A program made the translations under genes and the position numbers. Source: Malus domestica (taxonomy: Eukaryota; Streptophyta; Magnoliopsida; Rosales; Rosaceae). From it: 64,000 nucleotides of DNA. Of the stretch, positions 34,615 through 62,800 are shown piece by piece. The stretch spans positions 35,919,001-35,983,000 of the forward strand of contig NC_091663.1 of NCBI RefSeq assembly GCF_042453785.1. The letters are read 5' to 3'. Position 1 is the stretch's first letter. The number at the start of each line of letters is the position of its first letter. The notes below the pieces were generated by a model. It had not been told where the DNA came from. It worked only from the letters and a program-made list of their open reading frames with translations, and ran no database searches.

Positions 34615-35478
34615 ATCAAATGGACTTTATTTCTCTCAATGTTTTTTTTGTTTTTTTGTTTTTCATGTAGTGCAATCCGCACCATCCCTCTTTTTTTTTT
34701 ATATTATTATTTTTTTTCTTTTTAGATGGTGCAATCCGCACCATCCTTTTTTTTTATATTTTTTTTTCTTTTCAGATGGTGCAATCCGCACCATACCCCT
34801 TTTTTTTATATTTATTATTTATTTATTTTATTTTATTTTATATATATATATATTTTTTATTATTATTTTATATTTTTTTATTTTATTTTTTTCTTCTTTT
34901 CAGATGGTGCAATTCGCACCATACCCCTTTTTTATATATATTTATTATTTATTTATTTTATTTTATTTTATATTTATATTTATTATATTTTTTTCTTCTT
35001 TTCAGATGGTGCAATCCGCACCATAGCCCTTTTATTTATTTATTTATTTATTTATTATATATATATATATTTTATATTTTTTTATTTTATTTTTTTCTTC
35101 TTTTCAGATGGTGCAATCCGCACCATCCCCTTTTTTTATTTTTAAATTTTTTTTTATTTTTTATTTTTTTATTCTTTTCAGATGGTGCAATCCGCACCAT
35201 ACCCTTTTTTTTATTTTTATATTTATTATTTTTTTATTTCATTTTATTTTATATATATATTTTTTTTATATTTTTTTATTATATTTTTTTTTCTTTTCAG
35301 ATGGTGCAATCCGCACCATCCCCTTTTTTTATTTTTTTATATTATTTTTTTATTCTTTTGCAGTCCGCACCATCCCCTTTTTTTTTATATTATTTTATTT
35401 ATTTATTTTTTCAGATGGTGCAATCCGCACCATCTTTTTTTTTTTTTTTTTTTTTTTTTTCAAATCATCACCGTCTTT
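34615..35478 (+). repeat. Hairpin-core array, forward orientation (about 10 units)
   Basis: Each unit has a conserved core: TTCTTTTCAG, then ATGGTGCAATCCGCACCAT, then CCCTTTTTTT, separated by AT-rich spacers of variable length (unit spacing about 50-125 bp). Cores are at about 34670, 34726, 34776, 34901, 35005, 35108, 35182, 35308, 35361 and 35415. The 19-bp core is a 7-bp stem with a 5-nt loop. The outer end (34620-34645) is the reverse complement of 37362-37392. Confidence 0.9.
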
Positions 35479-35559
35479 TTTCTTTTTTCCTATAAATACC
35501 CCCGTATGTTGCTTGGCAATGGACGGAAGATTGAGCAGAGGGAGGATGCAGACATAATG

Positions 35560-36185
35560 TCACCCGTTGCCAAGCGAGGGTATTTATAGGAAAAAAAAAA
35601 GAGAGAGTGATGATTTGAAAAAAAAAAAAAAAAAAAAAAGATGGTGCGGATTGCACCATTTGAAAAGAAAAGAAAAATAAAATAAAATAATATAAAAAAT
35701 TATAAAAAAAAAAAGGGGATGGTGCGGATTGCAACATCTGAAAAGAATAAAAAAATAATATAAAAAAAATAAAAAAAAAGGGATGGTGCGGATTGCACCA
35801 TATGAAAAAAAATATAAAAAATATATATATATAAAATAAAATAAAATAAAAAAATAATAAATATATATAAAAAAAAAGGGGATGGTGCGGATTGCACCAT
35901 CTAAAAACAAGAAAAAAATATAATAAAAAAATATAAAAAATATATATATAAAAAAAAGGGTATGGTGCGGATTGCACCATCTGAAAAGAAGAAAAAAATA
36001 TAATAAAAAAAAATTATATATATATATATAAAATAAAATAAAATAAATAAAAAAAAAAAAAAAAAAAAAAGGGTATGGTGCGGATTGCACCATCTGAAAA
36101 GAAAAAAAAATATAATAATAAAAAAAAAAAGGGAATGGTGCGGATTGCACCATCTAAAAAGAAAAAAAAAAAATATAAAAAAGGC
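35560..36185 (-). repeat. Hairpin-core array, reverse orientation (about 7 units)
   Basis: Cores ATGGTGCGGATTGCACCAT lie at about 35641, 35718, 35784, 35882, 35960, 36075 and 36136, each followed by CTGAAAAG or a variant. It is the mirror image of 34615-35478 around a spacer centred at about 35543, where 'cctataaataccc' and 'gggtatttatagg' face each other. Confidence 0.9.
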
Positions 36186-36815
36186 CATTTTAATGGGAGC
36201 GGTCTCAGTGGTTTGGGTCGAAACTCTCTGCTTGAAAACTCGCAGACGGAGGAGACGTGAAGTCAAGTCAACGACACTCATCCGCCCTTCGGTTGTACAA
36301 TAAATCAAAGTTTTTCCAAGTCTTCTCTATCAGTGTGTCTGAGATCATATTATCTCAACTTCTCCGTACCTCCTCCCGGTGATTGGCCGCGCCCTTTTCA
36401 TGCTCTCCTCGTCAAAGCTCACTTCTGCAGTCTTTGACCACCGTCTCTGTTTGCTATGGGTTTCCGGTGCAGGGGGAGTTGGGTGTCTTGAGAAATTCTC
36501 CTCGATTTCATCCTTGCCGTCTTTGTTGCAACGGATGCGCAATGGTTGTGCTCGGTGACGGTGCAACGAGTGTGCAGTGGTTGTGCTCTGTGGTTGGGCT
36601 CAATGGCTGTGCTCTGGGTTTTAGCTGGATCCGACATCAAGGTCACCTCCACCCTCTCCGTCTTCATCCTTCCCTGCAAAATTCCTCTACCCATCATCCA
36701 AATTTATATAAAAAAATATATAATAAAAAAAGGGATGGTGGATCAAAGATGGGGAACAGCCCCATGGTAGATCAAAAGTTTCTGGTGGTGCATGGGCATT
36801 ATGTGCGGAAAGTAA
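36185..36815 (+). repeat. Internal block shared with copies C and D
   Basis: This block (from 'ggtctcagtggtttgggtcg' to 'catgggcattatgtgcgg') is repeated at about 53155-53735 in copy C and, in reverse complement, three times in the tandem units of copy D. It contains short GTGCAGTGGTTGTGCTC-like internal repeats and reads like exonic host-derived DNA. I do not recognise the source. Confidence 0.6.
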
Positions 36816-36829
36816 AAAAAAAAAAAAAA

Positions 36830-37355
36830 AAAAAAGGGGATGGTGCGGATTGCACCATCTGAAAAGAAGAAAAAAATATAATAAAAAAAAATTATATATA
36901 TATATATATATATATAAATAATAATAAAAAAAAGGGTATGGTGCGGATTGCACCATCTGAAAAGAATAAAAAAAATATATAAAAAAAAATAAAAAAAATA
37001 TAAAAAGGGGGATGGTGCGGATTGCACCATCTGAAAAGAAGAAAAAAATATAATAAAAATATTAAAAAATATATATAAAATTAAATAAAATTAAAAAAAA
37101 AAAAGGGGTATGGTGCGGATTGCACCATCTGAAAAGAAGAAAAAAAATATAATAAAATAAAAAATATATATAAAATAAAATAATAAATATAAAAAAAAGG
37201 GGGTATGGTGCGGATTGCACCATCTGAAAAGAAAAAAATATATAATAATAAAATAATATAAAAAAAAAGGATGGTGCGGATTGCACCATCTAAAAAGAAA
37301 AAAAAATAATATTAAAAAAAAAAAAAAGGAATGGTGCGGATTGCACCACATGAAA
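36830..37355 (-). repeat. Hairpin-core array, reverse orientation (about 7 units), second block
   Basis: Cores lie at about 36840, 36937, 37013, 37110, 37205, 37270 and 37330. It has the same layout as 35560-36185 and is followed by 'acattgagagaaataaagtccatt', the putative 3' end of the antisense gene of the family. Confidence 0.9.
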
Positions 37356-37472
37356 AAAAAAACATTGAGAGAAATAAAGTCCATTTCATTGATTTCTCTG
37401 GAAAATTACAAAGGGAACATTTACATACCAAAAAAAAAAAGAAAAAAAAAGAGTGCAAACAAACAAAAGCCT

Positions 37473-37970
37473 TCATTGATCAGGTGGCGCCTCAGTACTC
37501 GGCGGAGCCCCAGATCGGAGAGGCACCAGAGGGTGATTATTCAGAGCCTCAGTACTAGGCAGAACCTCAGGAGGAGTAGTCATCGAAGGTTGATCATTTG
37601 GAGTTTCATTACACGGTACAGCCTCAGAAGACGAAGACAAATGCCCTTGGAACAAACCCCCGAACTTCTGATGATCAAGTAAAATCTGACCATCAGATTC
37701 CTGCATCTGGTTAATCTTCCTCTTCATGTTTGTGGCATAGTTATGTGCGAGCTTGTGCAACTGTTTATTCTCATGCTTAAGCCCTCTAATCTCCTGTTTG
37801 AGACTCATCACTTCAGCCGCCAATGATTCAACTTGACGGGTTCGAGCAAATAGGCGTTGGGCCATATTAGACACAGAACCTGCACACTGCACATTGAGAG
37901 CCAGAGAATCCTTAACAGCTAACTCATCAGACCGTTTGGATAGTAGTTTGTTATCTTTGGGAGTGACAAG
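37473..37970 (-). pseudogene. 3' portion of the antisense coiled-coil frame of copy A (fossil)
   Basis: Minus-strand sequence homologous to the C-terminal two thirds of the antisense frames at 44182-44850 and 58961-59632, including the coiled-coil stretch. It is separated from its 5' portion (47739-47911) by the insertion of copy B exactly at the ACAAG target site. Confidence 0.8.
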
Positions 37971-38950
37971 TGTAGACATCGAAATTTTGGTAAATAAATG
38001 TTGACCGATAAATCAAAGTGTCAACGCTCATGTATTACATAAATTTTACACGTAGCGTGTGACTCAACGAAAATTGAAATGAGTTGGAAAAAGTCATCAA
38101 ATAGGACACGTGTCAACACCTGGCAGAAACGACTTATTTCATCTGGGATATTATATTCAAAATTAGGCCTTGATAAATTCTATAAATACAAGCCCATTTC
38201 ATTCATTTGAGGGAAACCAAAAATCATTAGGCAAAACTCTTGAAGCTCTGAAGCTCTGAAACTCCGAAGCTCTCAAGCATCCAGGTTCCCGAAGAATCAA
38301 GAAAGCGTTCTTCGTTCATCGTTCTTCCAAGATCAAGCCCGACGGCCCTTGGATCAACAATCATCCACCTTCAAGCCCAAGCCTCAACGGCCCCTTGAAG
38401 AAAGCGTTCATCGTTCATCAACTGTTCATCCTCAAGGATCAAGCCCCAACGGCCCCTTTGGATCGACAACACCAACAAATCCACTCATCCGCTGTTCATC
38501 AAGCCCAAGCCCCGACGGCCCTTGAAGAAAGCGTTCATCGTTCATCACTGTTCTTTGAGATCAAGCCCAAAAGCCCTCGAAGATCCGTTCAAGCTCAAAA
38601 GCTCTCGAAGATCCGTTCGTCACTGTTCTTCGAGTTCAAGCCCAAAAGCCATCGGAAATCCGTTCATCACTGTTCTTCGAGATCAAGCCTAAAAGCCCTT
38701 GAAGATCCGTCAATCACCATTCTTCAAGATCAAGCCCAAAAGCCCTTGAAGATCCGTTCATCCTCGTTCATCCAAGATCAAGCCTCAACGGCCCTTGGAT
38801 CAATTGCACCTCCCACAAATCAACACCTTACGGAGATCGAATCAGAGGATCAAAATAGAGAGAGATTGTAACCCAAAATCATCAAATACAAATATTTGTT
38901 TGCGCACGTTGTTCTTGTCTCTTTCGTTTCAGGAATTTTCCGTGTTCACA
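37971..38950 (+). repeat. 5' LTR of copy B
   Basis: Begins TGTAGACATC and ends GTGTTCACA. It contains a 'tctataaatac' TATA-like box (about 38180), then many units of the 'caagatcaagcc-ggcccttgaag' minisatellite. The open frame through these repeats is a by-product of the repeat, not a gene. Confidence 0.9.
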
Positions 38951-38953
38951 AAT

Positions 38954-38971
38954 TGGCACGCCCAGTGGGAC
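38954..38971 (+). other. Primer-binding site of copy B
   Basis: TGGCACGCCCAGTGGGAC starts three bases after the 5' LTR. Its reverse complement ends in TGCCA, as a tRNA 3' end would. The same site follows the LTR of copy C (about 51230) with one visible change. Confidence 0.7.
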
Positions 38972-39028
38972 CATCTCTGCCTCTCATCTCTTTCTCCGTT
39001 CAAAGAATCCAAACACACCTCAAAGTCA

Positions 39029-40993
39029 ATGGCATTAAGCAAGGGACAAGCCGTTCTCCCAACCACTGAGGGAAGGATCCTAAGCACTTCTGTCGCAAAC
39101 GGACAATCCATTGGCGCCACAACCGCTCCTCAACATGCTGCTTCAAAATTGGTGCCGCTAAAAGAGCGAGGGGAGCATCAAAGGTGTGAGTCTGTCATCA
39201 ACCTGACCTTGCTGGGGGCACCGAAGCATGCTGCTGAGGCACACAAGTTGACATCCCAAAGCACCCAACGACGTTCTTCATTAGCATCCTGGATGTCTAA
39301 AGGAAAGTCACGTCTATTGGTCGCACAAGTCATGACTATCGGCGTTACCTCCGTTGAAGAACAACTGGCTCAAATGAATGAAGCGATCGCAAGGCTAACC
39401 CGAACTGTGGAAGAAAAAGACTTGCAAATTGCAGCACTAGTCAACCGACTGGAGGCGCAGGACGGCGATAAACCCGACCCAGAGAATGATCCACTAAAGA
39501 GAAGAGATGACGAAGAAGATGAGCCTCAGGTGGAGAAAAACGATGCAAAGCCGAAGCCAGACCAAGCAGCGGCACTCATGGGATCTCTTTCTATCCAGCA
39601 GCTGCAAGAGATGATCACCAACACCATCAAGGCACAGTACGAAGGGAGCTCAAATACCTCCGGGTTGTACTCAAAGCCGTATTCAAAGAAGATCGACGCC
39701 TTAAGGATGCCGAAGGGTTATCAACCACCAAAGTTCATGCAATTTGATGGAAAGGGAAACCCGAAACAGCACGTTGCCCACTTCGTTGAAACTTGCAACA
39801 ACGCAGGAACCGAAGGGGATTACCTCGCCAAGCAGTTTGTGCGCTCGCTGAAAGGAAACGCCTTTGAGTGGTACACGGACCTAGAGCCTGAGTCCATCAA
39901 CAGCTGGGAGCAATTAGAGCGGGAATTCCTCAACCGCTTCTATAGCACCCGCCGCACTGTGAGCATGCTAGAGCTAACGAGCACAAAGCAGTGGAAGGAC
40001 GAGCTAGTCATTGACTACATCAACAGATGGCGCACTCTAAGCCTCGACTGTAAAGACAGGCTCTCGGAAACCTCTTCAATCGAGATGTGCATCCAAGGCA
40101 TGCAATGGGGTTTGCAATACATCCTTCAGGGCATTAAACCACGGACCTTCGAGGAATTAGCCACTCGCGCCCATGACATGGAGTTGAGCATCGCCCATCA
40201 TGGGAAGAAAGAACCGATCACCGACTACAAGAACGACAAAGTTCTTGGGACAAAGGTGGAAAATGCTGCATGGAAACCCACCAAGGAAGCGATGACGGTC
40301 AACACAGCTCCCGTCAAAATCTCCACACGAGGCAAGGCGATTCAAACCGAAGCTTTTCATGATCAAGAGATGCGTAGACGCACTTTGAAGGAGCTTGAGG
40401 AGAAGATTTATCCATTCCCCAACTCTGATGTGGTTGCCATGTTAGAAGACTTGCTGGAAAAGAAGGTGATCGGCTTGCCTGAGTGCAGACGGCCAGAAGA
40501 GATGAATCGCACTGACAGTTCAAGGTACTGTAAATTCCACCGCTTCATCAGTCATCCGACAGAAAAATGTTTCGTGCTGAAAGATCTCATCATGAAGCTG
40601 GCTCAGAAAGGAATCATCGAGCTAGATCTTGACGATGTGGTGAACACAAACTATACCACCTTCGCTTCTGGCTCTTCCGACTCGAAGTTTTCACCTCAAC
40701 CGCTGGGGGCATCCTCCAAGACAAGCAAAATTGAAGGATGGACTCAAGTCACTCCTAAGAAATTGCACAAGAAGCATACGTCTCATCCACAAGTCCGCCA
40801 ATCGGAAAGGGGGCAAAGCAGCTCTTGTCAACCTTCAAAGCAACGTGAACGTGTTGAAGACGATGAAATTGCGACACAAAAATCGTCCGTTGCCATCACG
40901 ATGCGCGACTTCTTGCCCGAAGACTTCTTCAATCACGCGGTCAAAGCTCCTTGCTATGAAAATTGTGAGGAACGCCTCTCCCGGATTGCTTGA
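39029..40993 (+). CDS. Gag protein of LTR element copy B
   Basis: Virus-like element part, open along its length (about 654 residues). A coiled segment is followed by the retrotransposon gag domain of plant Ty3/gypsy elements (key stretches FVRSLKGNAFEWYTDL and WEQLEREFLNRFY). Further on there is a CX2HX4HX4C zinc-knuckle-like motif (from CKFH to EKC). The start chosen is the ATG about 80 bp after the LTR; an in-frame ATG inside the LTR is less likely. No pol follows. Confidence 0.85.
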   Translation: MALSKGQAVLPTTEGRILSTSVANGQSIGATTAPQHAASKLVPLKERGEHQRCESVINLTLLGAPKHAAEAHKLTSQSTQRRSSLASWMSKGKSRLLVAQVMTIGVTSVEEQLAQMNEAIARLTRTVEEKDLQIAALVNRLEAQDGDKPDPENDPLKRRDDEEDEPQVEKNDAKPKPDQAAALMGSLSIQQLQEMITNTIKAQYEGSSNTSGLYSKPYSKKIDALRMPKGYQPPKFMQFDGKGNPKQHVAHFVETCNNAGTEGDYLAKQFVRSLKGNAFEWYTDLEPESINSWEQLEREFLNRFYSTRRTVSMLELTSTKQWKDELVIDYINRWRTLSLDCKDRLSETSSIEMCIQGMQWGLQYILQGIKPRTFEELATRAHDMELSIAHHGKKEPITDYKNDKVLGTKVENAAWKPTKEAMTVNTAPVKISTRGKAIQTEAFHDQEMRRRTLKELEEKIYPFPNSDVVAMLEDLLEKKVIGLPECRRPEEMNRTDSSRYCKFHRFISHPTEKCFVLKDLIMKLAQKGIIELDLDDVVNTNYTTFASGSSDSKFSPQPLGASSKTSKIEGWTQVTPKKLHKKHTSHPQVRQSERGQSSSCQPSKQRERVEDDEIATQKSSVAITMRDFLPEDFFNHAVKAPCYENCEERLSRIA

Positions 40994-41004
40994 CAAAATT
41001 CACA

Positions 41005-41310
41005 AATTCTCCTCGCCCGCACGAGTCTAAACTGCATGGCACAAAGCTCCTGGTCTGCACGAGCATAAAAGGCAACACCAATGCTCCTTGTTCGCACGAG
41101 CCTAAACTGCACGAACCAAAGCTCCTCGCCTGCACGAGCCCAAACTACATGGCACAACGCTCCTGGTCTGCACGAGCATAAAAGGCAACGCCAACGCTCC
41201 TGGTCTGCACGAGCATAAAAGGCAACACCAACGCTCATTGTCTGCACGAGTTGAAACTGCAAACGACACCAACACTCCTTACCTGCATGAGTTAAAATTG
41301 CAAACGGCAC
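41005..41310 (+). repeat. Minisatellite, about 38-40-bp unit, in copy B
   Basis: About seven or eight units with 'ctgcacgagc(a/c)taaa..gcaac.ccaa.gctcct'. The last units grade into 'gcaaacggcaca', which is also seen in reverse at the right end of the window in copy D. Confidence 0.8.
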
Positions 41311-41761
41311 AAAAAAAAAAAATATATATATATATATATATGTATTTGAACTACGTTATGACTTGATCTCTTTTTTTTGGAAGAGTACGTAGGCAACTTG
41401 AAACCTCAAAACTTCAAGTACAGTCGCATCAAAATAAAGAAGAAATATTTTATTAAAAGTTTGAAGATCAATATTATTACAATTACAAAAAAAAAAAAAA
41501 AAAAAAAATATTATATGTAATATATTTTATGTTGAAGTGTCCACTTAAAAGCCACATGGATGGAGCAAAACAATCTTAGTCAAAATCTACCAGCAAGCCC
41601 AGTTACAAATCCATCCTAAGCAGCCATGTTTCAGAAGCCCACACTGGTCTTGGCCCGATCCAAGGCAAGCCAAAATCTCTCATGGTTGGCTGGATTGCTG
41701 AAGACAAAGACCCACTTGTTGATGCACCAAACTCGAGCCATCATCCGCCTTTGTCTTCACC

Positions 41762-42276
41762 ATGATGCAACAACCATCAGGAGGAGTGCACCCACAAGAA
41801 GTTCCGTCGGATCCGCAGCAGCAGTACCAGCAAGCGCCTCAGCAGTACGCGGCCACACAGAATCCTGGCTCCGATGAGATCCGCTCCCTCTGGATCGGTG
41901 ACTTGCTGCAGTGGATGGACGAGGCTTATATCCTCAGCTGCTTTGGTCCCACCGGAGAGGCTGTAAACGCAAAAGGTTATCCGCAACAAGCTTACGGGTC
42001 TGCCAGAAGGTTATGGTTTTATCGAGTTTAGGTCTCGCGCTGCGGCTGAGCAGATCTTGCAGACATACAATGGCACTTTTATGCCTAACACGGAGCAGAA
42101 TTTCAGACTGAATCGGGCAACCCTAGGTGCTGATGAGAGACGACAGGATGATGGTCCAGATTTTACCGTCTTTGTTGGGGATTTGGCTGCTGATGTGACT
42201 GATTATGCTTCAAGAAACATTTAGGCAAAATTACCACTCGGTCAAAGGTGCAAGGGATGTAACTGATAGGACCACA
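41762..42276 (+). pseudogene. Captured RBP45/RBP47-like RNA-binding protein fragment in copy B
   Basis: Conceptual reading matches the N-terminus and first RRM of plant RBP45-type poly(A)/oligouridylate-binding proteins. Matching pieces are the Gln-rich start MMQQPSGG, then EIRSLWIGDL.QWMDE, ILQTYNGT, EQNFRLN.ATLGA, and GPDFTVFVGDLAADVTDY at the start of RRM2. Coding exons are joined without introns, so it probably came from an mRNA. It is a fragment, broken, and sits where pol would lie in an autonomous element. Confidence 0.75.
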
Positions 42277-42599
42277 GCACACCAAGTCTCGAATCCATCC
42301 TCCTTCCACTTCATTCCGTGACCTACATCTCAACATCGACTCTCCCTCGTTCCCCACCGTGGATTCAACTCGTACTCGGGCGATTCAAACGGGCGGTCCC
42401 ACAGGTTCACGGGCTACAGTGAGAAAGCCAACGCTGGCCGCCATATCTTCTCCTCCGATGCGGTCTTCGACCCTTGGCGACCTCCTCCTCCTTAAGATTG
42501 GAATTGCTAATTGGGTTTCTGAATTATGAACAGGATAAAGCGTTCTGGGTTGGGTTCTCTGCGTTTTCTCTCGAAGCATTCGAATTATGGAGGGTTTGC

Positions 42600-43128
42600 A
42601 GAAGTTGATTGGGAAACTCTCAAAAGACCCCCCATAATTGGGCTCCGCTTCAGCTTCCTTCGGCCCTCACCGTGGGATTGAAGGTCTTGCCGTCGCTCTG
42701 TCTTCCTCCGATCAGGCCCGGTGTGGCTGCTGCGTCGCTCAAAACGATTTGCCTCAAAGAGCTCTACAATGGACAGTGCTTTGGTCCTCTGATAATCGGC
42801 GCGAAGAAACTGAGGACTCTGAAGCTCTTCAGGTGCTCCGGCGATTGGGACAAGCTCCTCCAAGTGATATCTGAGCGAGTGACCTCCATGGTTGAGACCC
42901 ATCTCGAAAAGCTTCAGGTTAGCGACGTAGGCCTCACCACCATCTCCAATTGCTTGGATCTGGAGATTCTGCACCTGGTCAAGACCCCTGAGTGCACCAA
43001 TGTAGGATTGGTTTCCGTCGCCGAACGCTGCAAGCTGCTGAGGAAGCTTCACATTGACGGATGGAAGGCTAATCGAGTAGGCGACGAAGGTTTGGTCTCG
43101 GTAGCAAAGAATTGCGCTAACCTTCACA
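42600..43128 (+). pseudogene. Captured F-box/LRR (SKIP2/VFB-like) fragment in copy B
   Basis: Leucine-rich repeats match the VFB/SKIP2 group of F-box proteins (ICLKELYNGQCFGPLIIGAK, LKLFRCSGDWDKLLQVIS, CLDLEILHLVKTPECTN, ERCKLLRKLHIDGWK). The F-box and the C-terminal repeats are absent. The fragment stops at an A-rich junction near 43128. Upstream sequence 42280-42600 may belong to a further host fragment that I cannot name. Confidence 0.7.
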
Positions 43129-43739
43129 AAAAAAAAGTCTCTGTGAGCAGTGAACCAAAAAAAAAGCACCTGCATATCAACAACAGTATTCTTCACAAGC
43201 ATTGGTATTGGCTGGCAGCAGCCCATGTCGCTCTCAAGCAGGATCTCGCCGCGGCCCAGCACGACCTCCGCCGCTCATCCGTCGTCACAGGGACGACCTC
43301 CGTCATCCATCTTCGTCCTCTAGCCTCCAACTTCATCACCATACTCGTGACCTTCTCTGAGCAATAGGATCCTCGAAAGTTGTTGCTTGTGCTGCTATCC
43401 TGTCTTCGTCCTTCCCCCGTCACCCTCTGCATGGCGCAAAAACATCTCGGCTCGTCCTTAGGCAACGGTGTGTCCTCATCTTCGCAGGAAAACAACAACG
43501 GCAGTGCAATGGTTGTGTAGTCGCTGTGCAATGGCGGCGGTGCAGGGCAACAAGAATGCATTGGCGGTGCGATGGTTGTGCAGTGGCAGTGGCAAACAGC
43601 AATGGCGAAGAACCTCAATAACCGCCGTCAAACGACTAGCCGGTCATGAAGCCTCGACTCCAGCTCTACGTCGTCTTCGTCCTCCCTGCAAATTCCCCAT
43701 CCCATCATCAAAATTTATACAAAAAAAACAAATATTAAA

Positions 43740-43876
43740 AAATAGGATGGTGGAACACTGCACCATAATTAAAAATATATATATAATAAAGTAATAAAAA
43801 GATGATGAAGGAACATGGTGCGTCTGGCACCATATGAAAAAAGGGGGAGGGGTGCAGCTGTCACCATAATTAAAGG

Positions 43877-43935
<59 letters not shown>

Positions 43936-43983
43936 AAACAATAATATATTTAAAGAGTTATGGTGCATCTGGCACCATGTGCA

Positions 43984-43985
<2 letters not shown>
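43740..43985 (-). repeat. Short hairpin array of copy B with different loops
   Basis: Cores include ATGGTGCGTCTGGCACCAT (about 43814) and ATGGTGCATCTGGCACCAT (about 43960), plus two weaker copies (about 43746 and 43853). The stem is the same as in the large arrays but the loops are GTCTG and ATCTG. A long TA run (43880-43932) and a 40-bp A run follow. Confidence 0.85.
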
Positions 43986-44023
<38 letters not shown>

Positions 44024-44181
44024 AACAAATGTATTAAGAGAAATAAAGTCCATTTTATTTATGGAAATTTTTACATAAATTTGCATTGTACATAAAAAAA
44101 TAAAAAAATAAAAAAAAAAATAAAAAAAAGAAAGAAAAAAAAAATCAAATCAAATCAAATCAAATTTACAAGAGGGGATCT

Positions 44182-44850
44182 TCAAGGACGATCAGGTGCC
44201 GCCTCACCACTCGGCAGAGCGCCAGAAATGAGAGGCGCTGGAGGTTGACTGTTTGAAGCCTCACCACTCGCCGGAACTCCAGGAAGAAGAGGAGCCAAAG
44301 GTTGATCATTTGGAGCTTCATTACGCAGTACAGCCCCAGAAGACGAAGGCAAATGTTGTTGGAACAAACCCACAAACCTCCGATGATCAAGTAAAATCTG
44401 ACCATCAGATTCCTGCATCTGGTCAATTTTCCTCTTCATGTTTGTGGCATAGTTGTGTGCGAGCTTGTGCAACTGTTTATTCTCATGCTTGAGCCCTCTA
44501 ATCTCCTGTTTGAGACTCATCACTTCAGCCGCCAACGATTCAACTTGACGGGTTCGAGCAAATAGGCGTTGGGCCATGTTGGACACAGAACCCGCACACT
44601 GCACACTAAGAGCCAGGGACTCCTTAACAGCCAACTCATCAGACCGCCTGGAAAGTAGTCTGTTATCTTTGGGAGTGACAAGGTTCCGGGCCACCACCGC
44701 AGCGGTCATATCATTCTTCATCACCGAATCCCCAACAGTAAGAGGACCAGTAGGGGATATGAAGGATGGGCGCCATATGTTATCTGGAGAAGACGGGACT
44801 ACCTCTTCACCAAGGTTCAAATCAAAACGACGGTCGGAGGGTCCAGACAT
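44182..44850 (-). CDS. Antisense coiled-coil protein frame of copy B
   Basis: Frame of about 222 residues on the strand opposite to gag, in the 3' half of the element. It starts MSGPSDRRFDLNLGEE, where FDLNL resembles an EAR-type repression motif. Residues about 92-148 form a clear heptad-rich coiled coil (RQVESLAAEVMSLKQEI, then LKHENKQLHKL). The tail is Pro/Ser-rich (repeated SG-ASNSQPPAPL-like units). A TATA-like box lies upstream at about 44962-44971 and AT-rich 3' sequence with a recurring 'aaataaagtcca' block lies downstream. The same frame is present in copy A (split) and copy D. I do not recognise the protein family. Some plant Ty3/gypsy elements are known to carry extra or antisense ORFs. 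Confidence 0.75.
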   Translation of the reverse strand: MSGPSDRRFDLNLGEEVVPSSPDNIWRPSFISPTGPLTVGDSVMKNDMTAAVVARNLVTPKDNRLLSRRSDELAVKESLALSVQCAGSVSNMAQRLFARTRQVESLAAEVMSLKQEIRGLKHENKQLHKLAHNYATNMKRKIDQMQESDGQILLDHRRFVGLFQQHLPSSSGAVLRNEAPNDQPLAPLLPGVPASGEASNSQPPAPLISGALPSGEAAPDRP

Positions 44851-44960
44851 TTTCAAAGTGTTGAAGGAAGAAGAGATCGGACAAATCAAGACTTTAGAAG
44901 TGCAAGAAGGGAGTTTCTACAAGTGAAAATTCAAGTGTGCTTTGAAACGAACTGCGTGCC

Positions 44961-44971
44961 TCTATATATAA
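44961..44971 (-). promoter_or_regulatory. TATA-like box for the antisense frame of copy B
   Basis: On the minus strand TATATATAGAGGCACGC lies about 115 bp upstream of the antisense start codon. Equivalent TATAGAGGCA(C/T)GC boxes are found at the same place in copy A (about 48021-48030) and copy D (about 58834-58850). Confidence 0.55.
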
Positions 44972-45019
44972 AAAAATCGACACTCGACGGGATTTCAGAG
45001 ATCGAAGAGGTGAGCTCAG

Positions 45020-45265
45020 AGTTCGAAAATGCCGATTCAAAAATCGAAGCGCCGATCCCAGATATCGAAGAGACACCAGTCTTTTCCAGACACGTCAGCA
45101 CCCATCACACGCAAACTCAGCTTTGCGGAAATCACGGGTAATTTGTCGAAGCGCCGATCCCAGTTATTGAAGAAGCGCCAGTCTTTTTCAGCCGCGTCAT
45201 CACCTGTCATATGCACACTCAACTTTGCGCAAATCACGGGCAATTTGTCGAAGATTTTCGGTGAA
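45020..45265 (-). repeat. Minisatellite of about 102 bp upstream of the antisense promoter (copy B, 2 units)
   Basis: Units contain 'cacgcaaactcagctttgcggaaatcacgggtaatttgtcgaag' with variants. Copy A has three units (48120-48415, period 102) and copy D three (58440-58740, reversed). Its constant place next to the TATA-like box suggests a role as upstream regulatory repeats, by inference. Confidence 0.75.
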
Positions 45266-45719
45266 GGAGAAAGCACGTGAAGTTTACTGTTCAATCACGC
45301 GTTAGTTGCCGACACGAGTGAAAGAATAGTACCTCTACAAGTATTAAAGGACCTCCTATAACTGTCCACCTTCACCTTCCATAGCAAGGCAGACATACAG
45401 AGTCTTTCTTCATCTCCAAAGATGTTTTCCCAACGAAGCCTCTCGAGTCATTCAATGTTCCTTATTCCTTGGGGTACCTCCGCAAGCCAATGACTCCAAA
45501 GCAAAAGTATCTCATATCACCAGGGTAGAAAGCAAGAGTATCTCATATCATGCGTTCTCCCTGTCCTTTCCTTTGTCCTTGTTCTTACCTACAAAGACAA
45601 GGATAAAGAAAACAATATGCCGAAACTTCCACTCAAACTCGGGTAAGGAACCGACTGCTCAGAACCCTTCCCTGATTGCCTACCTAGCACTGCTCTCAAG
45701 TACTCGTTTCCCACTGCTG

Positions 45720-45975
45720 CTGTACTTCCAAAGAAGCTGCCACATCTGCCTGGAGAACAGATAAGGCAAGTGAAAATGATACCTTGCAGCATGTGGAGAC
45801 AAGGTGCAGAAGGAACAAGCAGAGAAGAATGCAGTCTGCACAGTCAACTCAGCAGAAGGAGTCCGAGCTGAAGAACTTGAGAAGCTGCCATATCTGCCTG
45901 AAGAAACAAGCAGAGAAGAATGCAGCATGCACAGTCAACTCGGCAGAAAGAGTCTGAGATGAAGAACTCGTTTTG
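45720..45975 (+). repeat. Minisatellite of about 80 bp in copy B
   Basis: Units share 'ctgcctg(g/a)agaa..agcagagaagaatgc..gcacagtcaactc.gcagaa.gagtc'. Related arrays are at 48920-49200 (copy A) and 57700-57970 (copy D, reversed). Confidence 0.7.
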
Positions 45976-46189
45976 ACCCTCAAATTCTTGGGTCGACTTA
46001 CTAGGCCTTGTGGGCTGCACGTGCCGATTCACCACCCTTGAATCAAATCCTTAAAGATCAAGTCACCAACTGGAAGAAGAGCCCATCAATCTTGAAGATC
46101 ATACCGCTGACCAAACTGCTCAGGTGTGAATTAGAAAAATTGAACAAAGCAACAAGTCGTCACCTTCACCTCGTGCCTGCTTGCAATAT

Positions 46190-46680
46190 GTTCGAGTTAA
46201 CCTTCAAGAATCAAGCCTCGACGGCCCTTGAAGAAGTTTCCAGCCAAATTCAAGATCAAACCTCGACGGCCATTGAAGAAATCACAAGTCCGATTCAAGA
46301 TTAAGTGTCTACCACCTTTGAATCAAAACCTAGTTCAAGAATAAGCTGTGGAAAATCAACAATTGGAGGAATCCAGAAAATCCTCCAACCCAGTTCAAGA
46401 TCAAAGTTGTGGAAAGTCAACAAGCGCAACAAAATATGTGCCGATTCACCCACTACCAAAACCAAAGATCATCTACCACATGAAGCTCCTTGTGGTCCAA
46501 TTTCAACCTTCAAGATCAAGCCTCGACGGCCCTTGAAGAAATTTCAAACGAAAGTTCAAGAACAAGCCTCAACGGCCCTTGAAGAAATCTCAAGCCCAAT
46601 TCAAGATCAAGCCTCAACGGCCCTTGAAGAAATCTCCAGCCCAATTCAAGATCAAGCCTCGACGGCCCTTGGATCGACAT
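46190..46680 (+). repeat. ATCAAGCC/GGCCCTTGAAG repeats before the 3' LTR of copy B
   Basis: Many units of 'ttcaagatcaagcctc(a/g)acggcccttgaagaa'. The same repeat fills much of the LTRs and recurs in copy A (49550-50060) and copy D (57260-57340, reversed). Within a unit CTTCAAG and CTTGAAG can pair as a 7-bp stem. Confidence 0.85.
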
Positions 46681-46745
46681 CTACAGTAAAGGACTTCAAA
46701 ACGCATCTCCTACACGTGACAAGCACATGTATACGACGTGCCTTG

Positions 46746-46757
46746 AAGTGGGGGCAT
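46746..46757 (+). other. Polypurine tract of copy B
   Basis: AAGTGGGGGCAT directly precedes the 3' LTR, as expected for plus-strand priming. The same tract precedes the LTR at 50147. Confidence 0.75.
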
Positions 46758-46758
46758 T

Positions 46759-47738
46759 TGTAGACATCGAAATTTTGGTAAATAAATGTTGACCGATAAA
46801 TCAAAGTGTCAACGCTCATGTATTACATAAATTTTACACGTAGCGTGTGACTCAACGAAAATTGAAATGAGTTGGAAAAAGTCATCAAATAGGACACGTG
46901 TCAACACCTGGCAGAAACGACTTATTTCATCTGGGATATTATATTCAAAATTAGGCCTTGATAAATTCTATAAATACAAGCCCATTTCATTCATTTGAGG
47001 GAAACCAAAAATCATTAGGCAAAACTCTTGAAGCTCTGAAGCTCTGAAACTCCGAAGCTCTCAAGCATCCAGGTTCCCGAAGAATCAAGAAAGCGTTCTT
47101 CGTTCATCGTTCTTCCAAGATCAAGCCCGACGGCCCTTGGATCAACAATCATCCACCTTCAAGCCCAAGCCTCAACGGCCCCTTGAAGAAAGCGTTCATC
47201 GTTCATCAACTGTTCATCCTCAAGGATCAAGCCCCAACGGCCCCTTTGGATCGACAACACCAACAAATCCACTCATCCGCTGTTCATCAAGCCCAAGCCC
47301 CGACGGCCCTTGAAGAAAGCGTTCATCGTTCATCACTGTTCTTTGAGATCAAGCCCAAAAGCCCTCGAAGATCCGTTCAAGCTCAAAAGCTCTCGAAGAT
47401 CCGTTCGTCACTGTTCTTCGAGTTCAAGCCCAAAAGCCATCGGAAATCCGTTCATCACTGTTCTTCGAGATCAAGCCTAAAAGCCCTTGAAGATCCGTCA
47501 ATCACCATTCTTCAAGATCAAGCCCAAAAGCCCTTGAAGATCCGTTCATCCTCGTTCATCCAAGATCAAGCCTCAACGGCCCTTGGATCAATTGCACCTC
47601 CCACAAATCAACACCTTACGGAGATCGAATCAGAGGATCAAAATAGAGAGAGATTGTAACCCAAAATCATCAAATACAAATATTTGTTTGCGCACGTTGT
47701 TCTTGTCTCTTTCGTTTCAGGAATTTTCCGTGTTCACA
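46759..47738 (+). repeat. 3' LTR of copy B
   Basis: 980 bp, the same length as the 5' LTR. In all stretches I compared it reads the same, and the 158-codon repeat-derived frame is identical. It is followed by the target duplication ACAAG. Confidence 0.9.
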
Positions 47739-47911
47739 ACAAGGTTCTGGGCCACCACCGCAGCGGTCATATCATTCTTTATCATCGAATCCCCAACGGT
47801 AAGAGGACCAGTAGGGGATATGAAGAATGGGCGCCATATGTTGTCTGGAGAAGGCGGGACTGCCTCTTCACCAAGATTCAAGTCAAAACGACAGTCGGAG
47901 GGTCCAGACAT
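47739..47911 (-). pseudogene. 5' portion of the antisense coiled-coil frame of copy A (fossil)
   Basis: Homologous to the first part of the frame at 44182-44850 (MSGPSDCRFDLNLGEE...). It is cut off at the copy B insertion; the rest lies at 37473-37970. Confidence 0.8.
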
Positions 47912-48119
47912 TTTCAAAATGTTGAAGAAAGAAGAGGTCGGACGAACCAAGATCTTAGAAATGCAAAAAGGGAGTTTCTACAAGCAAAAAATTCAAGTGT
48001 GCTTTGAAACAAACTGCATGCCTCTATAAAAATCAGCATTCAATGGGATTTCAGAGATCGAAGAGGCGAGCTCAGAATTCGAAGAGGCCAATTCAAAAAA
48101 TCGAAGAGGCAAGCTCAGA

Positions 48120-48415
48120 AATCGGAGAGGCATCTTGCTTTTCTAGACGCGTCAGCACCCGTCACACGCAAACTCAGCTTTGCGGAAATCACGGGTAATT
48201 TGTCAAAGCGCCGATCCTAGATATCGAAGAGACGCTAGTCTTTTCCAGACACGTTATCACCTATCATACGCAAACTCAGCTTTGCGAAAATCACGGGTAA
48301 TTTATCGAAGCGCCGATCCCAGTTATCGAAGAGGCGCCAGTCTTTTTCAGCCGCGTTAACACCTGTCACATGCACACTCAGCTTGGCGGAAATTACGGAC
48401 AATTTGTCGAAGATT
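48120..48415 (-). repeat. 102-bp minisatellite, 3 units (copy A)
   Basis: The motif 'acggg(t)aattt.tc.aag' recurs at 48191, 48293 and 48395, an exact 102-bp spacing. Confidence 0.8.
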
Positions 48416-53150: not shown

Positions 53151-53739
53151 TTCAGTATTCGAAACTCTCTGCTTGAAAACTCGCAGACGGAGGAGACGTG
53201 AAGTCAAGTCAACGGCACTCATCCGCCCTTCGGTTGTACAATAAATCAAAGTTTTTCCAAGTCTTCTCTATCAGTGTGTCTGAGATCATATTATCTCAAC
53301 TTCTCCGTACCTCCTCCCGGTGATTGGCCGCGCCCTTTTCATGCTCTCCTCGTCAAAGCTCACTTATGCAGCTTTTGACCACCGTCTCTGTTCGCTATGG
53401 GTTTTCGGTGTAGGGGGAGTTGGGTGTCTTGAGAAATTCTCCTCAATTTCATCATTGCCATCTTTGTTGCAACGGATGTGCAGTGGCTGTGCTCGGTGAC
53501 GGTGCAACAGATGTGCAGTGGTTGTGCTCTGTGGTTGGGCTCAATGGTTGTGCTATGGGTTCTAGCTGGATCCGATATCAAGGTCACCTCTACCCTCTCC
53601 GTCTTCGTCATTCTCTGCAAAATTCCTCTACCCATAATCCAAATTTATATAAAAATATATATAATAAAAAAGGGGATGGTGGATCAAAGATGGGGAACAG
53701 CCCCATGGTAAATCAAAAGTTTCTGGTGGTGCATGCACC

Positions 53740-56015: not shown

Positions 56016-56440
56016 TGCTCACTCCGCCACCAACAATCACACCTCTGAAAGCTTCATGAAGGTCCCAGCATCATGCTCTGCCTTTTTAAAAATTAAGGAT
56101 TCCTAACGTCACAGCAAAGAAATCCATCAGTGGGAGCACAAACACACTATGCATAAAAATAGATACATTATATGGTATTATATGTGTGTGTGTATATGGG
56201 TGTGCGTATATATATATATGGCTTGAAAAGATGCAAATGGTGATGGTGATGGGATGATTGAAGGAATGTATATATATTCTGGCATCCTAAACAGATTATG
56301 TATATATGAGGTCCAAAAGATTGAAATCGTCATCAACCTAAAGCATACCTAAAAACTTGCTATTGCTGCACCACAATGTCACCCGTCTGCATCCTCCCTC
56401 TGCTCAATCTTCCGCCCATTGCCAAGCAACATACGGGGGT

Positions 56441-56449
56441 ATTTATAGG
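56441..56449 (-). promoter_or_regulatory. TATA-like box facing the antisense PMD frame
   Basis: On the minus strand CCTATAAATACCCCCG lies next to the hairpin array, about 870 bp upstream of the antisense PMD start. The same segment occurs at the centre of the inverted repeat in copy A (35485-35500 and, mirrored, 35575-35592). Confidence 0.4.
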
Positions 56450-56489: not shown

Positions 56490-57030
56490 AAAAAAAAAGA
56501 TGGTGCGGATTGCACCATCTGAAAAGAAAAAAAAAATAAAATAAAAAAATATAAAAAATTATAAATAAATAAATAAATAAATATATAAAAAAAAGTGGGG
56601 GATGGTGCGGATTGCACCATCTGAAAAGAATAAAAAATTAATATAAAAAAATTAATAATAATAAAAAAAAAGGGGATGGTGTGGATTGCACCATCTGAAA
56701 AGAAGAAAAAAATATAATAAAATAAAAAATATATATATAATAAAAAAAAAAATTAAAAAAAAAGGGTATGGTGCGGATTGCACCATCTGAAAAAAATAAA
56801 AAAATAAAAAAAGGGGGATGGTGCGGATTGCACCATCTGAAAAGAAGAAAAAAATATAATATATATATATATATATATATATAAAATAATAATAATAATA
56901 AATATAAAAAAAAGGGGTATGGTGTGGATTGCACCATCTGAAAAGAAAAAAAAATATAATAATAAAATAATATTAAAAAAATAATAATATAAAAATAAAA
57001 GGGATGGTGCGGATTGCACCATCTAAAAAG
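56490..57030 (-). repeat. Hairpin-core array of copy C (about 7 units)
   Basis: Cores lie at about 56502, 56604, 56676, 56768, 56818, 56919 and 57005. Two have TGTGGATT instead of TGCGGATT, which turns one G-C stem pair into a T-C mismatch. Spacers and the CTGAAAAG flank are as in copy A. Confidence 0.9.
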
Positions 57031-58439
57031 AAAAAAAAATAGTATAAAAAAAAACATTGAAAGAAATAAAGTCCATTTCATTGATTTCTCTGGAAAATTA
57101 CAAAGGGAACATTTACATACCAAAAAAAGAAAAAAAAGAAAAAAAAAAGAGTGCAAACAAACAAAAGCCTTCATTGATCAGGTGGCGCCTCAGTACTGAA
57201 CTTACTCTTTATGTGGAGTTGGATTTGATTCAAGGGTGATGGACACTTGATCTTGAATCGTACTTGTGATTTCTTCAAGGGCCGTCGAGGCTTGATCTTG
57301 AACTTTGGCTAGAAGCTTCTTCAAGGGCCTTTGAGGCTTGATCTCGAAGGTTGATTCGAACACATGGCAAGCAGGCACGAGGTAAAGGTGACAGCCTGTT
57401 TCTTTGTTCAATCTTTCTAATTCACACCTGAGCAGTTTGGTCAACGGTATGATCTTCAAGATTGATGAGCTCTTCTTCCAGTTGGTGACTTGATCTTTAA
57501 GGATTTGATTCAAAGGTGGTGAATCGGCACGTGCAGCCCACAACGCCTAGCGAGTCGACCCAAGTATTTGAGGGTTAAAACGAGTCCTCCACCCAGAATG
57601 ATTGCAACTTTGATGATATGAGATACTTTTGATTTTGATGAAGTAGCGGATGAATCGGCACGTATTTTGTTGTGCTTATCTCCATATGCTTCAATGTATC
57701 ATTTCCCTTGCCTTATCTATTCTTCTGGCAGAATGTGGCATATGCTCGAGTTCCTCAGTTCAAACTCATTCTGCTGAGTTGATTGTGCATGCCGCATTTC
57801 CTTATTTGTTCTCCAGGCAGATGTGGCATCTTCTCGAGTTCCTCAGCTCGGACTCATTCTGCTGAGTTGACTGTGCAGGCCGCATTCTTCTCTGCTTGTT
57901 CCTTCTACACGTTGTCTCCACATGCTGCAAGGTACTTGCCTTATCTGTTCTCCAGGCAGATGTGACAGCTTCTTTGGAAGTACAGCAGCAGTGGAAGACG
58001 AGTACTCGAGAACAGTGCTAGGTAGGCAATCAGGGAAGGGTTCCAAGCAGTCGGTTCCTTACCCGAGTTTGAGATGAGGTTCCGGCATATTGTTTTCTTT
58101 ATCCTTGTCTTTGTAGGTAAGAACAAAGACAAAGGAAATGACAGGGAAAAATCATGATATGAGATACTCTTGCTTTCTACCCTGGTAATATGAGATACTT
58201 TTGCTTTGGTGTCATTTGTTTGCTGAGGTACCCCAAGGAATAAGGAACATTGGGTGACTCGAGAGGCTTCGTTGGGAAGGCATTCTCGGAGATGAAGAAA
58301 GGTTCTGTATGTCTGCCTTGCTATGGAAGGTGAAGGTGGACAGTTATATGAAGTCTTTTAATACCTGTAGAGGTACTATTCTTTCACTCGTGTCGGCAAC
58401 TAACGCGTGATTGATCGGTATGGCTTCACGTGCTTTCTT

Positions 58440-58960: not shown

Positions 58961-59632
58961 ATGTCTGGACCCTTTGACCGTCGTTTTGATTTGAACTTTG
59001 GTGAAGAGGCAACCCCGCCTTCTCCAGATAACATATGGCGCCCATCCTTCATATCCCCTACTGGTCCTCTTACCGTTGGGGATTCGATGATGAAGAATGA
59101 TATGACCGCTGCGGTGGTGGCCCGGAACCTTGTCACTCCTAAAGATAACAGACTACTTTCCAAGCGGTCTGATGAGTTGGCTGTTAAGGATTCTCTGGCT
59201 CTCAGTGTGCAGTGTGCAGGTTCTGTGTCTAATATGGCCCAACGTCTATTTGCTCGAACCCGTCAAGTTGAATCATTGGCGGCTGAAGTGATGAGTCTCA
59301 AACAAGAGATTAGAGGGCTTAAGCATGAGAATAAACAGTTGCACAAGCTTGCACATAACTATGCCACAAACATGAAGAGGAAGATTAACCAGATGCAGGA
59401 ATCTGATGGTCAGATTTTACTTGATCATCAGAAGTTCGTGGGTTTGTTCCAACAGCATTTGCCTTCGTCTTCTGGGGCTGTACCGCGTAATGAAGCTCCA
59501 AATGATCAACCTTCAGTGCCTCCTCCTCCTAGAGTTCCGCCGAGTGATGTGGCTTCAAACAGTCAACCTCCAGCGCCTCTCATTTCTGGAGCTCTGCCGA
59601 GTGGTGAGGCGTCACCTGATCGTCCTTTGTGA
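58961..59632 (+). CDS. Coiled-coil protein frame of copy D (antisense to the element)
   Basis: About 223 residues, open along its length and close to the frame at 44182-44850: FDLNFGEE near the start, the same heptad-rich coiled coil, and the same Pro/Ser-rich tail with a few changes. A TATA-like box is upstream. Downstream are T-rich sequence and 'aaataaataaaatgg' (59700-59735), which could serve as a poly(A) signal region. The product is unrecognised. The EAR-like motif is less perfect here. Confidence 0.75.
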   Translation: MSGPFDRRFDLNFGEEATPPSPDNIWRPSFISPTGPLTVGDSMMKNDMTAAVVARNLVTPKDNRLLSKRSDELAVKDSLALSVQCAGSVSNMAQRLFARTRQVESLAAEVMSLKQEIRGLKHENKQLHKLAHNYATNMKRKINQMQESDGQILLDHQKFVGLFQQHLPSSSGAVPRNEAPNDQPSVPPPPRVPPSDVASNSQPPAPLISGALPSGEASPDRPL

Positions 59633-59874
59633 AGGCTGCCTATTGTTTGATGCTTGCACATTTGTAATTTTTTTTTGTTTGCATATAGAATGCAATTTTA
59701 TGTAATCTTTCCAGAAAAATAAATAAAATGGATTTTATTTCTCTCAATGCAATTTTTTTTTTCTTTTGGTGCTGGATGCACCAAGTTCCATCATCATTTT
59801 TTTTTATTATATTTTTTTTTCTTTTCCGTCTGCTTTCGGTGCCATTACCTTTCTTTACAATTTTTTTTCTTTCC

Positions 59875-62800
59875 GCACATAGTGCCCATGCACCACCAGA
59901 AACTTTTGATTTACCATGGGGCTGTTCCCCATCTTTGATCCACCATCCCCTTTTTTTATTATATATTTTTTTATATAAATTTGGATGATGGGTAGAGGAA
60001 TTTTGTAGGGAATAACGAAGACGGAGAGGGTGGAGGTGACCTTGATGTCGGATCCAGCTAGAACCCAAAGCACAGCCTTTGAGCCCAACCACAAAGCACA
60101 ACCACTGCACACTCGTTGCACCGTCACCGAGCACAACCACTGCGCATCCGTTGCAACAAAGACGGCAAGGATGAAATCGAGGAGAATTTCTCAAGACACC
60201 AAACTCCCCCTGCACCGGAAACCCATAGCGAACAGAGACGGTGGTCAAAAGCTGCAGAAGTGAGCTTTGACGAGGAGAGCATGAAAAGGGCGCGCCCAAT
60301 CACAGGGAGGAGGTACGGAGAAGTTGAGATAATATGATCTCAGACACACTGATAGAGAAGACTTGGAAAAACTTTGATTTATTGTAAAACCGAAGGGCGG
60401 ATGAGTGCCGTTGACTTGACTTCACGTCTCCTCCGTCTGCGAGTTTTCAAGCAGAGAGTTTCGACCCAAACCACTGAGACCGCTCCCATTAAAATGGCCT
60501 TCGTAAAAAAAATACAAAGTTCATGGCCACCAACCAAGCATCTTCACTCTGTGAGGCTGATCCGTATACTCTTTGTGCAATCTGTCACATATGTGTTACT
60601 TCCGCATCAACTTCAACATCACATGTGAATGATTTCTCATCACTTGGGCAGCTAAGGAAGAGAAGTGGAGAGCTTGGAACTTGACACAGCCGTAGAGGAA
60701 GATGAGCCATCCGTGTTTCTTGCTGCTGACCATTGATTCAACAAGACTTGGCATTTTGTGTGTTAAACCAAGAGAGCGGCAGAGCTCAGGTGTTGAGCTG
60801 GAAGTGAAGGAGTTGCAGCGGCAATAGCGTCGAGCTCATCGGCGTTCTTGCTCGGAGGAAGAAGAAGAAAGCCGGTATTTTTTTTTTGCACATAGTGCCC
60901 ATGCAACACCAGAAACTTTTGATCTACCATGGGGCTGTTCCCCATCTTTGATCCACCATCCCCTTTTTTTATTATATATATTTTTATATAAATTTGGATG
61001 ATGGGTAGAGGAATTTTGCAGGGAAGGACGAAGACGGAGAGGGTGGAGGTGACCTTGATGTCGAATCCGGCTAGAACCCAAAACACAGCCATTGAGCCCA
61101 ACCACAGAGCACAACCACTGCACACTCGTTGCACCATCACCGAGCACAACCACTGTGCATCCGTTGCAACAAAGACGGCAAGGATGAAATCGAGGAGAAT
61201 TTCTCAAGACACCCAACTCCCCCTGCACCGGAAACCCATAGCGAACAGAGACGGTGGTCAAAATCTACAGAAGTGAGCTTTGACGAGGAGAGCATGAAAA
61301 GGGCGCGGCCAATCACCGGGAGGAGGTACAGAGAAATTGAGATAATATGATCTCAGACACACTGATAGAGAAGACTTGGAAAAACTTTGATTTATTGTAC
61401 AACCGAAGGGCGGATGAGTGCCGTTGACTTGACTTCACGTCTCCTCCGTCTGCGAGTTTTCAAGCAGAGAGTTACGACCCAAACCACTGAGACCGCTCCC
61501 ATTATAATGGCCTTCGTAAAAAAAATACAAAGTTCATGGCCACCAACCAAACATCTTCACTCTGTGAGGCTGATCCGTATACTCTTTGTGCAATCTGTCA
61601 CATATGTGTTACTTCCGCATCAACTTCAACATCACATGTGAATGATTTCTCATCACTTGGGCAGCTAAGGAAGAGAAGTGGAGAGCTTGGAGCTTGACGC
61701 AGTCGTAGAGGAAGATGAGCTCTCCGTGTTTCTTGCTGCTGACCATTGATTCAACAAGACTTGGCATTTTGTGTGTTAAACCAAGAGAGCGGCAGAGCTC
61801 AGGTGTTGAGCTGGAAGTGAAGGAGTTGTAGCGGCAATAGCGTCGAGCTCATCGGCGTTCTTGCTCGGAGGAAGAAGAAGAAAGCCGATATTTTTTTTTT
61901 TGCACATAGTGCCCATGCAACACCAGAAACTTTTGATCTACCATGGGGCTGTTCCCTATCTTTGATCCACCATCCCCTTTTTTTATTATATATTTTTTTA
62001 TATAAATTTGGATGATGGGTAGAGGAATTTTGCAGGGAAGGACAAAGACGGAGAGGGTGGAGGTGACCTTGATGTCGGATCCAGCTAGAACCCAGAGCAC
62101 AGCCATTGAGCCCAACCACAAAGCACAACCACTGCACACTCGTTGCACCGTCACCGAGCACATCCACTGCGCATCTGTTGCAACAAAGACGGCAAGGATG
62201 AAATCGAGGAGAATTTCTCAAGACACCCAATCCCCCTGCACCGGAAACCCATAGCGAACAGAGACGGTGGTCAAAAGCTGCAGAAGTGAGCTTTGACGAG
62301 GAGAGCATGAAAAAGGCGCGCCCAATCACCGGGAGGAGGTACGGAGAAGTTGAGATAATATGATATCAGACACACTGATAGAGAAGACTTGGAAAAACTT
62401 TGATTTATTGTACAACCAAAAGTCGGATGAGTGTCGTTGACTTGACTTCACGTCTCCTCAGTCTGCGAGTTTTCAAGCAGAGAGTTTCGACCCAAACCAC
62501 TGAGACCGCTCCCATTAAAATGGCCTTCGTAAAAAAAATACAAAGTTCATGGCCACCAACCAAGCATCTTCACTCTGTGAGGCTGATCCGTATACTCTTT
62601 GTGCAATCTGTCACATATGTGTTACTTCCGCATCAACTTCAACATCACATGTGAATGATGTCTCATCACTTGGGCAGCTAAGGAAGAGAAGTGGAGAGCT
62701 TGGAGCTTGACGCAGCCGTAGAGGAAGATGAGCCCTCCGTGTTTCTTGCTGCTGACCATTGATTCAACAAGACTTGGCATTTTGTGTGTTAAACCAAGAG

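Follow-up and report, generated by a model that had tools for sequence, protein, structure and literature searches.

A palindromic core with a changing loop ahead of a TATA box in LTR retrotransposons of Malus domestica: a putative two-fold-symmetric DNA site

Does a palindrome whose arms stay constant around a changing loop owe its constancy to pairing in an RNA, to a protein that binds the DNA, or to recent copying? The question is raised by a 64-kb window of the Malus domestica genome (the whole stretch of 64,000 nucleotides analysed here), in which a sequence-only reading had pointed out dozens of 19-bp cores made of a 7-bp stem (ATGGTGC/GCACCAT) and a 5-nt loop, and had proposed selection on a structure or on a palindromic binding site. 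A search for ATGGTGC-N5-GCACCAT with at most two mismatches recovers 33 sites in the window (27 exact, four with one mismatch and two with two), whereas 100 shuffles yield a mean of 0.12 and at most 2; 23 of the 33 fall within 34667-37349 (Table 1). The abundance of cores is therefore real, and the loops had also been read correctly, namely AATCC for the big arrays (read antisense), GTCTG or ATCTG (on the sense strand) for copy B, and TGGAT for copy D, whose core TTGGTGC-TGGAT-GCACCAA does carry an outer pair altered on both sides. Loop AATCC is found in 29 of the 31 array cores, two of the 31 being partial, and the right array, with 14 cores in total, is interrupted by a module. The stem is 6-7 bp long, a longer one being ruled out because in the 29 full array units the eighth pair is G-C in only 14 (G-A in 11) and the ninth is A-C in 25 (A-T in three). 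A splice-acceptor-like CTTTTCAG ahead of the core is frequent in AATCC units; none was seen in front of the cores of copies B and D, and the motif was set aside.

Table 1. Coordinates of the cores, their neighbouring motifs and the carrier elements in the window
Feature	Position	Strand	Remark
polyA-like motif, left copy (anchor)	34618..34640	+	position converted
Left array, 10 cores	34667..35433	+	8 exact, 2 partial; AATCC loops, + strand giving the antisense reading
CTATAAATACCC box beyond left array	35490..35501	+	
TATAAATA beyond right array	35581..35588	-	
Right array, first part, 7 cores	35641..36153	-	6 exact
Module dividing right array	36181..36734	-	resembles copies at 53159-53735 and 59948-62527 (94-97%)
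TATAAAT within right-array module	36702..36708	-	
Right array, second part, 7 cores	36840..37349	-	6 exact
polyA-like motif, copy A	37364..37386	-	
Antisense ORF, copy A	37473..37970	-	broken by E1
Element E1	37971..47738	+	inserted in copy A's antisense ORF
E1 gag ORF	38795..40993	+	PF03732, E 2.1e-13 (Pfam)
TATAAAT beyond copy B cores	43713..43719	-	
Copy B cores	43747..43978	-	inside E1; 2 exact with antisense-reading loops CAGAC, CAGAT, and 2 degenerate
polyA-like motif, copy B	44033..44055	-	
E1 antisense ORF	44182..44850	-	222 aa
TATAAATA beyond copy C array	56440..56447	-	
Copy C array, 7 cores	56500..57022	-	5 exact
polyA-like motif, copy C	57056..57078	-	
Antisense ORF, copy D	58961..59632	+	
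polyA-like motif, copy D	59726..59748	+	
Copy D core	59766..59784	+	TTGGTGC-TGGAT-GCACCAA
TATAAAT beyond copy D core	59974..59980	+	

Two further repeats were observed around the cores. The left and right arrays together form an imperfect inverted repeat (34967-36130, 78% over 1245 aligned columns, centre at about 35548), the junction of which is fold-back-like, with two TATA boxes facing one another. The core of copy D is followed by three tandem copies (95-97% alike, 59862-62912) of a unit some 1013 bp long, which contains a second hairpin, ATGGGG-CTGTT-CCCCAT, intact in two of the three.

Counted over the 651-Mb assembly (19 contigs), ATGGTGC-N5-GCACCAT occurs exactly 457 times against once for its control, and the shorter TGGTGC-N5-GCACCA 864 times against 10 for the reversed control; pooling all spacings of 0-12 between the arms TGGTGC and GCACCA gives 1700 sites genome-wide and 214 in the control. 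Since the sample of copies should not be chosen by the core itself, we anchored it on the polyA-like motif, which lies outside the core and has 320 sites genome-wide with at most two mismatches (control 5), taking 70 of the 100 sites listed out of these 320, with 570 bases beyond the motif. The 70 anchor copies hold 308 units with at most three arm mismatches, present in 69 copies, and 115 of these units are perfect, as against 22 units in the same sequence after letter shuffling, none with fewer than two mismatches, and 104 units with reversed arms, none perfect and 19 with one mismatch; 58 of the 70 have a unit when no more than one arm mismatch is allowed. In 85 distinct perfect-arm units, the arms are separated by 5 nt in 70 cases, 4 nt in eight, 3 nt in three and 2 nt in four, none having a spacing of 0, 1 or 6-14, and the anchor-copy sample holds no everted and one direct arm pair. 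Tandem arrays are found in 10 of 59 representative loci. Neither the exact 19-mer core nor the polyA-like motif occurs in the viral contigs, a match of the motif in one bacterial contig (L001), without core, was dismissed as chance, and in the openly licensed literature we found neither a description of the palindrome nor the letters of its core.

The cores sit in nested LTR retrotransposons that have a gag and an antisense ORF, with no pol ORF seen. E1, the youngest of the elements seen, is bounded by two identical LTRs, each about 980 bp long (an exact repeat of 981 bp, at 37971-38950 and 46759-47738), which start with TG and end with CA; it has a target duplication ACAAG and a polypurine tract preceding the 3' LTR, and it carries two intact and two degenerate units. 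Apart from the Pfam domain listed in Table 1, its gag resembles PF19259 (Ty3_capsid) at 21.8 bits, under the cut-off of 29.1, and no pol ORF was seen in E1, Pfam having covered three of its seven ORFs of at least 150 aa; judged by the gag domain and the lack of a visible pol ORF, the carrier would belong to a gag-only, non-autonomous family of Ty3/gypsy type. The protein of the antisense ORF is 91% (copy B) and 85% (copy A fragment) identical to that of copy D; its profile matches are weak and to coiled-coil families, and in three copies TRP28 (PF04195) gave no match up to E 10. Another ORF inside E1 (42609-43367, +), for which Pfam gave no match, may resemble an F-box/LRR protein. In the stretch from the antisense ORF to the 3' LTR side, copies A and B carry further tandem repeats, of about 102 bp (45044-48412).

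Within these elements the place of the units is regular. Read in the antisense direction, the order is antisense ORF, polyA-like motif, cores in a T-rich spacer and a TATAAAT-type box, and all five polyA-like motifs of the window (left, A, B, C and D) are followed by cores and then by a TATAAAT or CTATAAATACCC box. When the module was located by the sequence 3' of the TATA box alone, it was found in 33 of the 59 representative loci, and TATAAAT stands 10-12 nt ahead of it in 30 of these 33 as against none of 212 control windows; the gap from the end of the closest unit to the box is 18-254 nt (median 78, n = 29). In seven of 70 loci, all amplified, CTATAAATACCC replaces TATAAAT. Of 29 loci picked by the core, four have both the polyA-like motif (at most four mismatches) and the TATA box in place, three the motif only, 14 the box only and, against this order, eight neither. 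Downstream of the copy C box, two Plant mobile domain fragments run in its direction (53628-55575, -; 31.5 and 32.8 bits, slightly under the Pfam cut-off of 34.9); collinear with the TATA box after the array, they possibly represent a captured gene.

Older, unamplified units keep their arms steadier than their loops, and amplified arrays do not. The 29 full array units show four changes at 406 stem sites and one at 145 loop sites (Fisher p = 1.0; 9/434 and 2/155 when two partial units are included), so that the loops there are as conserved as the stems, an outcome that the sequence-only reading had itself named as speaking against its claim; a kept stem with a changing loop is thus not what the arrays cited for it display, and it is what unamplified units display genome-wide. 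Recent amplification accounts for much of the equality of loop and stem in these arrays, since no more than 3 of 139 sites differ in the unique sequence adjoining copies A and C. Counted over 30 units, variant states number 5 at the 19 core positions and 29 at 28 flank positions (p = 0.002), the flank rates including slippage because the flanks are slippery T-runs.

The contrast in unamplified units emerges from two kinds of comparison. In an alignment-free test on 49 unamplified representative loci (spacing 5, at most three mismatches), units with an exact left arm mismatch at 9.1% per site in the right arm and 26% in the loop (n = 57), and units with an exact right arm at 6.2% in the left arm and 22% in the loop (n = 48), whereas 10 amplified loci have arms (1.3-3.6%) and loops (2.6-3.0%) alike. 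If any spacing is admitted and units with four mismatches are kept, arm mismatch stands at 90/636 and 90/558 (14% and 16%). Within the loop, variability peaks at position 5 (C or T), with 42-47%. In an aligned test, a third copy defined the units at which two other copies were compared (identity 0.86-0.985); here unamplified units differ at 9/936 stem, 66/385 loop and 175/2642 flank sites, this being what is left after 153 of 274 unamplified candidates were dropped because of gaps, and AATCC units at 61/2148, 17/895 and 538/5748, respectively. Ungapped three-way comparisons are too few to use, be it for unamplified units (eight comparisons; stem 0/96, loop 0/40, flank 10/224) or for AATCC units (six; stem 6/72, flank 16/168). 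GC-rich upstream control windows differ at 7.0% and 8.2%; a stem-like rate of at most 1% is seen at 13 of 228 window positions of this control, and its combination with a loop-like rate of at least 15% at none of the 228.

Were the cores stem-loops in sense or antisense RNA, whether for 3'-end processing, for packaging or as small-RNA precursors, the stem would be kept for pairing, and four intact units do fold well on their own (minimum free energy -11.1 to -14.8 kcal/mol). The covariation check for which the sequence-only reading had called turned out otherwise, because in 64 distinct units (spacing 5, at most two arm mismatches) 84.4% of cells are paired against 83.5% in shuffles, 61 of 500 shuffles being as high, and two pairs are altered on both sides against 1.5. 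Among 34 cores of the window, the 10 altered stem pairs comprise seven broken, two G-U and one that is Watson-Crick after change on both sides (copy D); in the widest set, inner pairs are altered one-sidedly 69 times and on both sides twice. Stem pair 4 is exact at 457 sites genome-wide, altered on one side at 52 and on both at 28, of which nine are Watson-Crick and four have a loop known from the family, one of these four being paired; a unit type GTGTTGC-AATCC-GCAACAT, in which pair 4 is paired through a double change, speaks for the hairpin. One-sided G-to-A changes at this pair, in units with a family loop read as antisense RNA and sorted by eye, give 11 G-U against 16 A-C, and another count gives 8 against 11, so that G-U is not favoured, and Rfam has no match at its gathering threshold in 34000-63000. 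The strongest result on the structure side is the association within the outer pair, which in 84 distinct perfect-arm units is A-T in 52, G-C in seven, A-C in six and G-T in two (p = 6e-5; 60 Watson-Crick against 49.5 expected). Genome-wide this pair is altered on one side at 242 sites and on both at 165, and 46 of the first 50 both-sided sites listed are Watson-Crick; since these 46 fall into two kinds only, GTGGTGC-CAGAY-GCACCAC and TTGGTGC-TGGAT-GCACCAA (one copy TGTAT), we read the association as mostly two inherited unit types spread by transposition. TTGGTGC-TGGAT-GCACCAA and GTGGTGC-CAGAT-GCACCAC are neighbours 163-211 bp apart seven times among the matches listed (e.g., C2:15499289/15499452), and such recurring neighbours are likely a subfamily signature. 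RNA structure, unsupported as it is by pair counts, by the balance of one- and both-sided changes, by G-U preference and by Rfam, we therefore consider unlikely. More doubtful still is an upkeep of the hairpin by mutation, whereby template switching would copy one arm from the other without any selection: the process is known for hairpins, together with compensatory changes and loop inversions (PMC8794818), and it would account for lone paired changes such as that of copy D, but it predicts flipped loops, of which 102 perfect-arm units of spacing 5 contain none, and paired changes, which are nearly absent from the inner pairs, and as the force of upkeep it was rejected on both grounds. A loop inversion relating AATCC to TGGAT, which requires a one-base shift, was likewise rejected given those 102 units.

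The main rival, which we regard as possible though on the doubtful side, is a neutral spacer repeat, the palindrome being incidental to the hypervariable repeats of a Tat/Retand-like element. Recent amplification would then explain the arm constancy, together with the fact that nothing else in the T-rich tract escapes slippage, and loops would appear fast partly because of sites prone to methylation, for example the CG in CAGAC-G. The likeness of loop and stem in the amplified arrays, the near identity of the unique sequence next to copies A and C, the unfiltered arm mismatch, the variability of loop position 5 and the occurrence of tandem repeats in this region of Tat elements all agree with such a repeat; on the other hand, unamplified units have arms steadier than the loop they enclose, units hold their place before the TATA box, and no upstream control window reproduces the combined stem-like and loop-like rates.

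A symmetric DNA site fits better than RNA structure or template switching, and the explanation that we put forward, seeming to us about equally apt to be right or wrong, is that the core TGGTGC-N5-GCACCA is a putative two-fold-symmetric protein site upstream of an inferred internal antisense promoter, and not an RNA structure. Of the two targets of selection proposed at the outset, structure thus falls for want of covariation above shuffles, and the binding site gains support from arms that vary less than the loop and the outer flanks, the prevailing spacing of 5 and the TATAAAT lying 3' of the units. Constant symmetric arms around a free spacer are indeed found in unamplified units, and the position of the units, their genome-wide enrichment, the steadier arms and the absence of inner-stem covariation are observations; the symmetric site supposes in addition an active TATA box, a bound protein and arms preserved by selection rather than by mutation bias. 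A dimeric DNA-binding protein, either a host factor or a product of the element, would bind the two arms, half-sites whose centres are separated by 11 bp or roughly one helical turn, and the bound core would act in cis on the internal antisense promoter at the TATAAAT box. In one subfamily, that with loop AATCC, the unit would recently have been amplified into arrays, which would make loops and stems alike there. That the palindrome is an operator for the antisense-ORF product, a possible dimer binding next to where its gene ends on the 3' side, we deem improbable; if it were so, the product would control antisense transcription in the direction of gag, and the element would use array amplification for dosage or as a decoy. 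A palindrome with arms that outlast the loop, placed regularly before a conserved TATA box, provides a testable cis-element for that region, and also a caution that a hairpin with stem kept and loop changed may suggest RNA structure even if its inner stem is without covariation.

Part of this architecture is familiar from known retrotransposons. Tat-lineage Ty3/gypsy elements such as Ogre and Retand have tandem repeats in a hypervariable 3' region (PMC7004042, PMC11963269), about half of Tat/Retand elements have 3' internal tandem arrays and 97% of clusters have a TRP28 domain in the antisense ORF (PMC11963269), and the antisense gene of Grande has its own promoter (PMC7264820); on these accounts, tandem repeats and antisense ORFs are already known features of Tat/Retand elements. 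The elements described here share with Ogre and Retand the short tandem arrays downstream of gag, the long internal 3' region and a copy number that varies between copies, and with Retand and Grande an antisense ORF that in E1 is oriented against gag and stands between coding region and 3' LTR; two Tat/Retand traits, the position of this ORF and the 3' tandem arrays, are hence present, and the third, TRP28, is not found up to E 10 in the antisense ORF of three copies. The big arrays are best read as the outcome of recent tandem amplification, something that Tat/Retand elements are known for. E1 is also like the gag-only non-autonomous LTR elements known as TR-GAG in having identical LTRs, a gag and no pol ORF seen, but differs from them in its antisense ORF, its palindromes and, in copy C, the Plant mobile domain fragments. 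What sets these elements apart from Retand and Grande is a TATA box placed 3' of the antisense ORF and directed away from it, and from Ogre and Retand a repeat unit organised around a palindrome that has arms steadier than the loop and stands before that TATA box.
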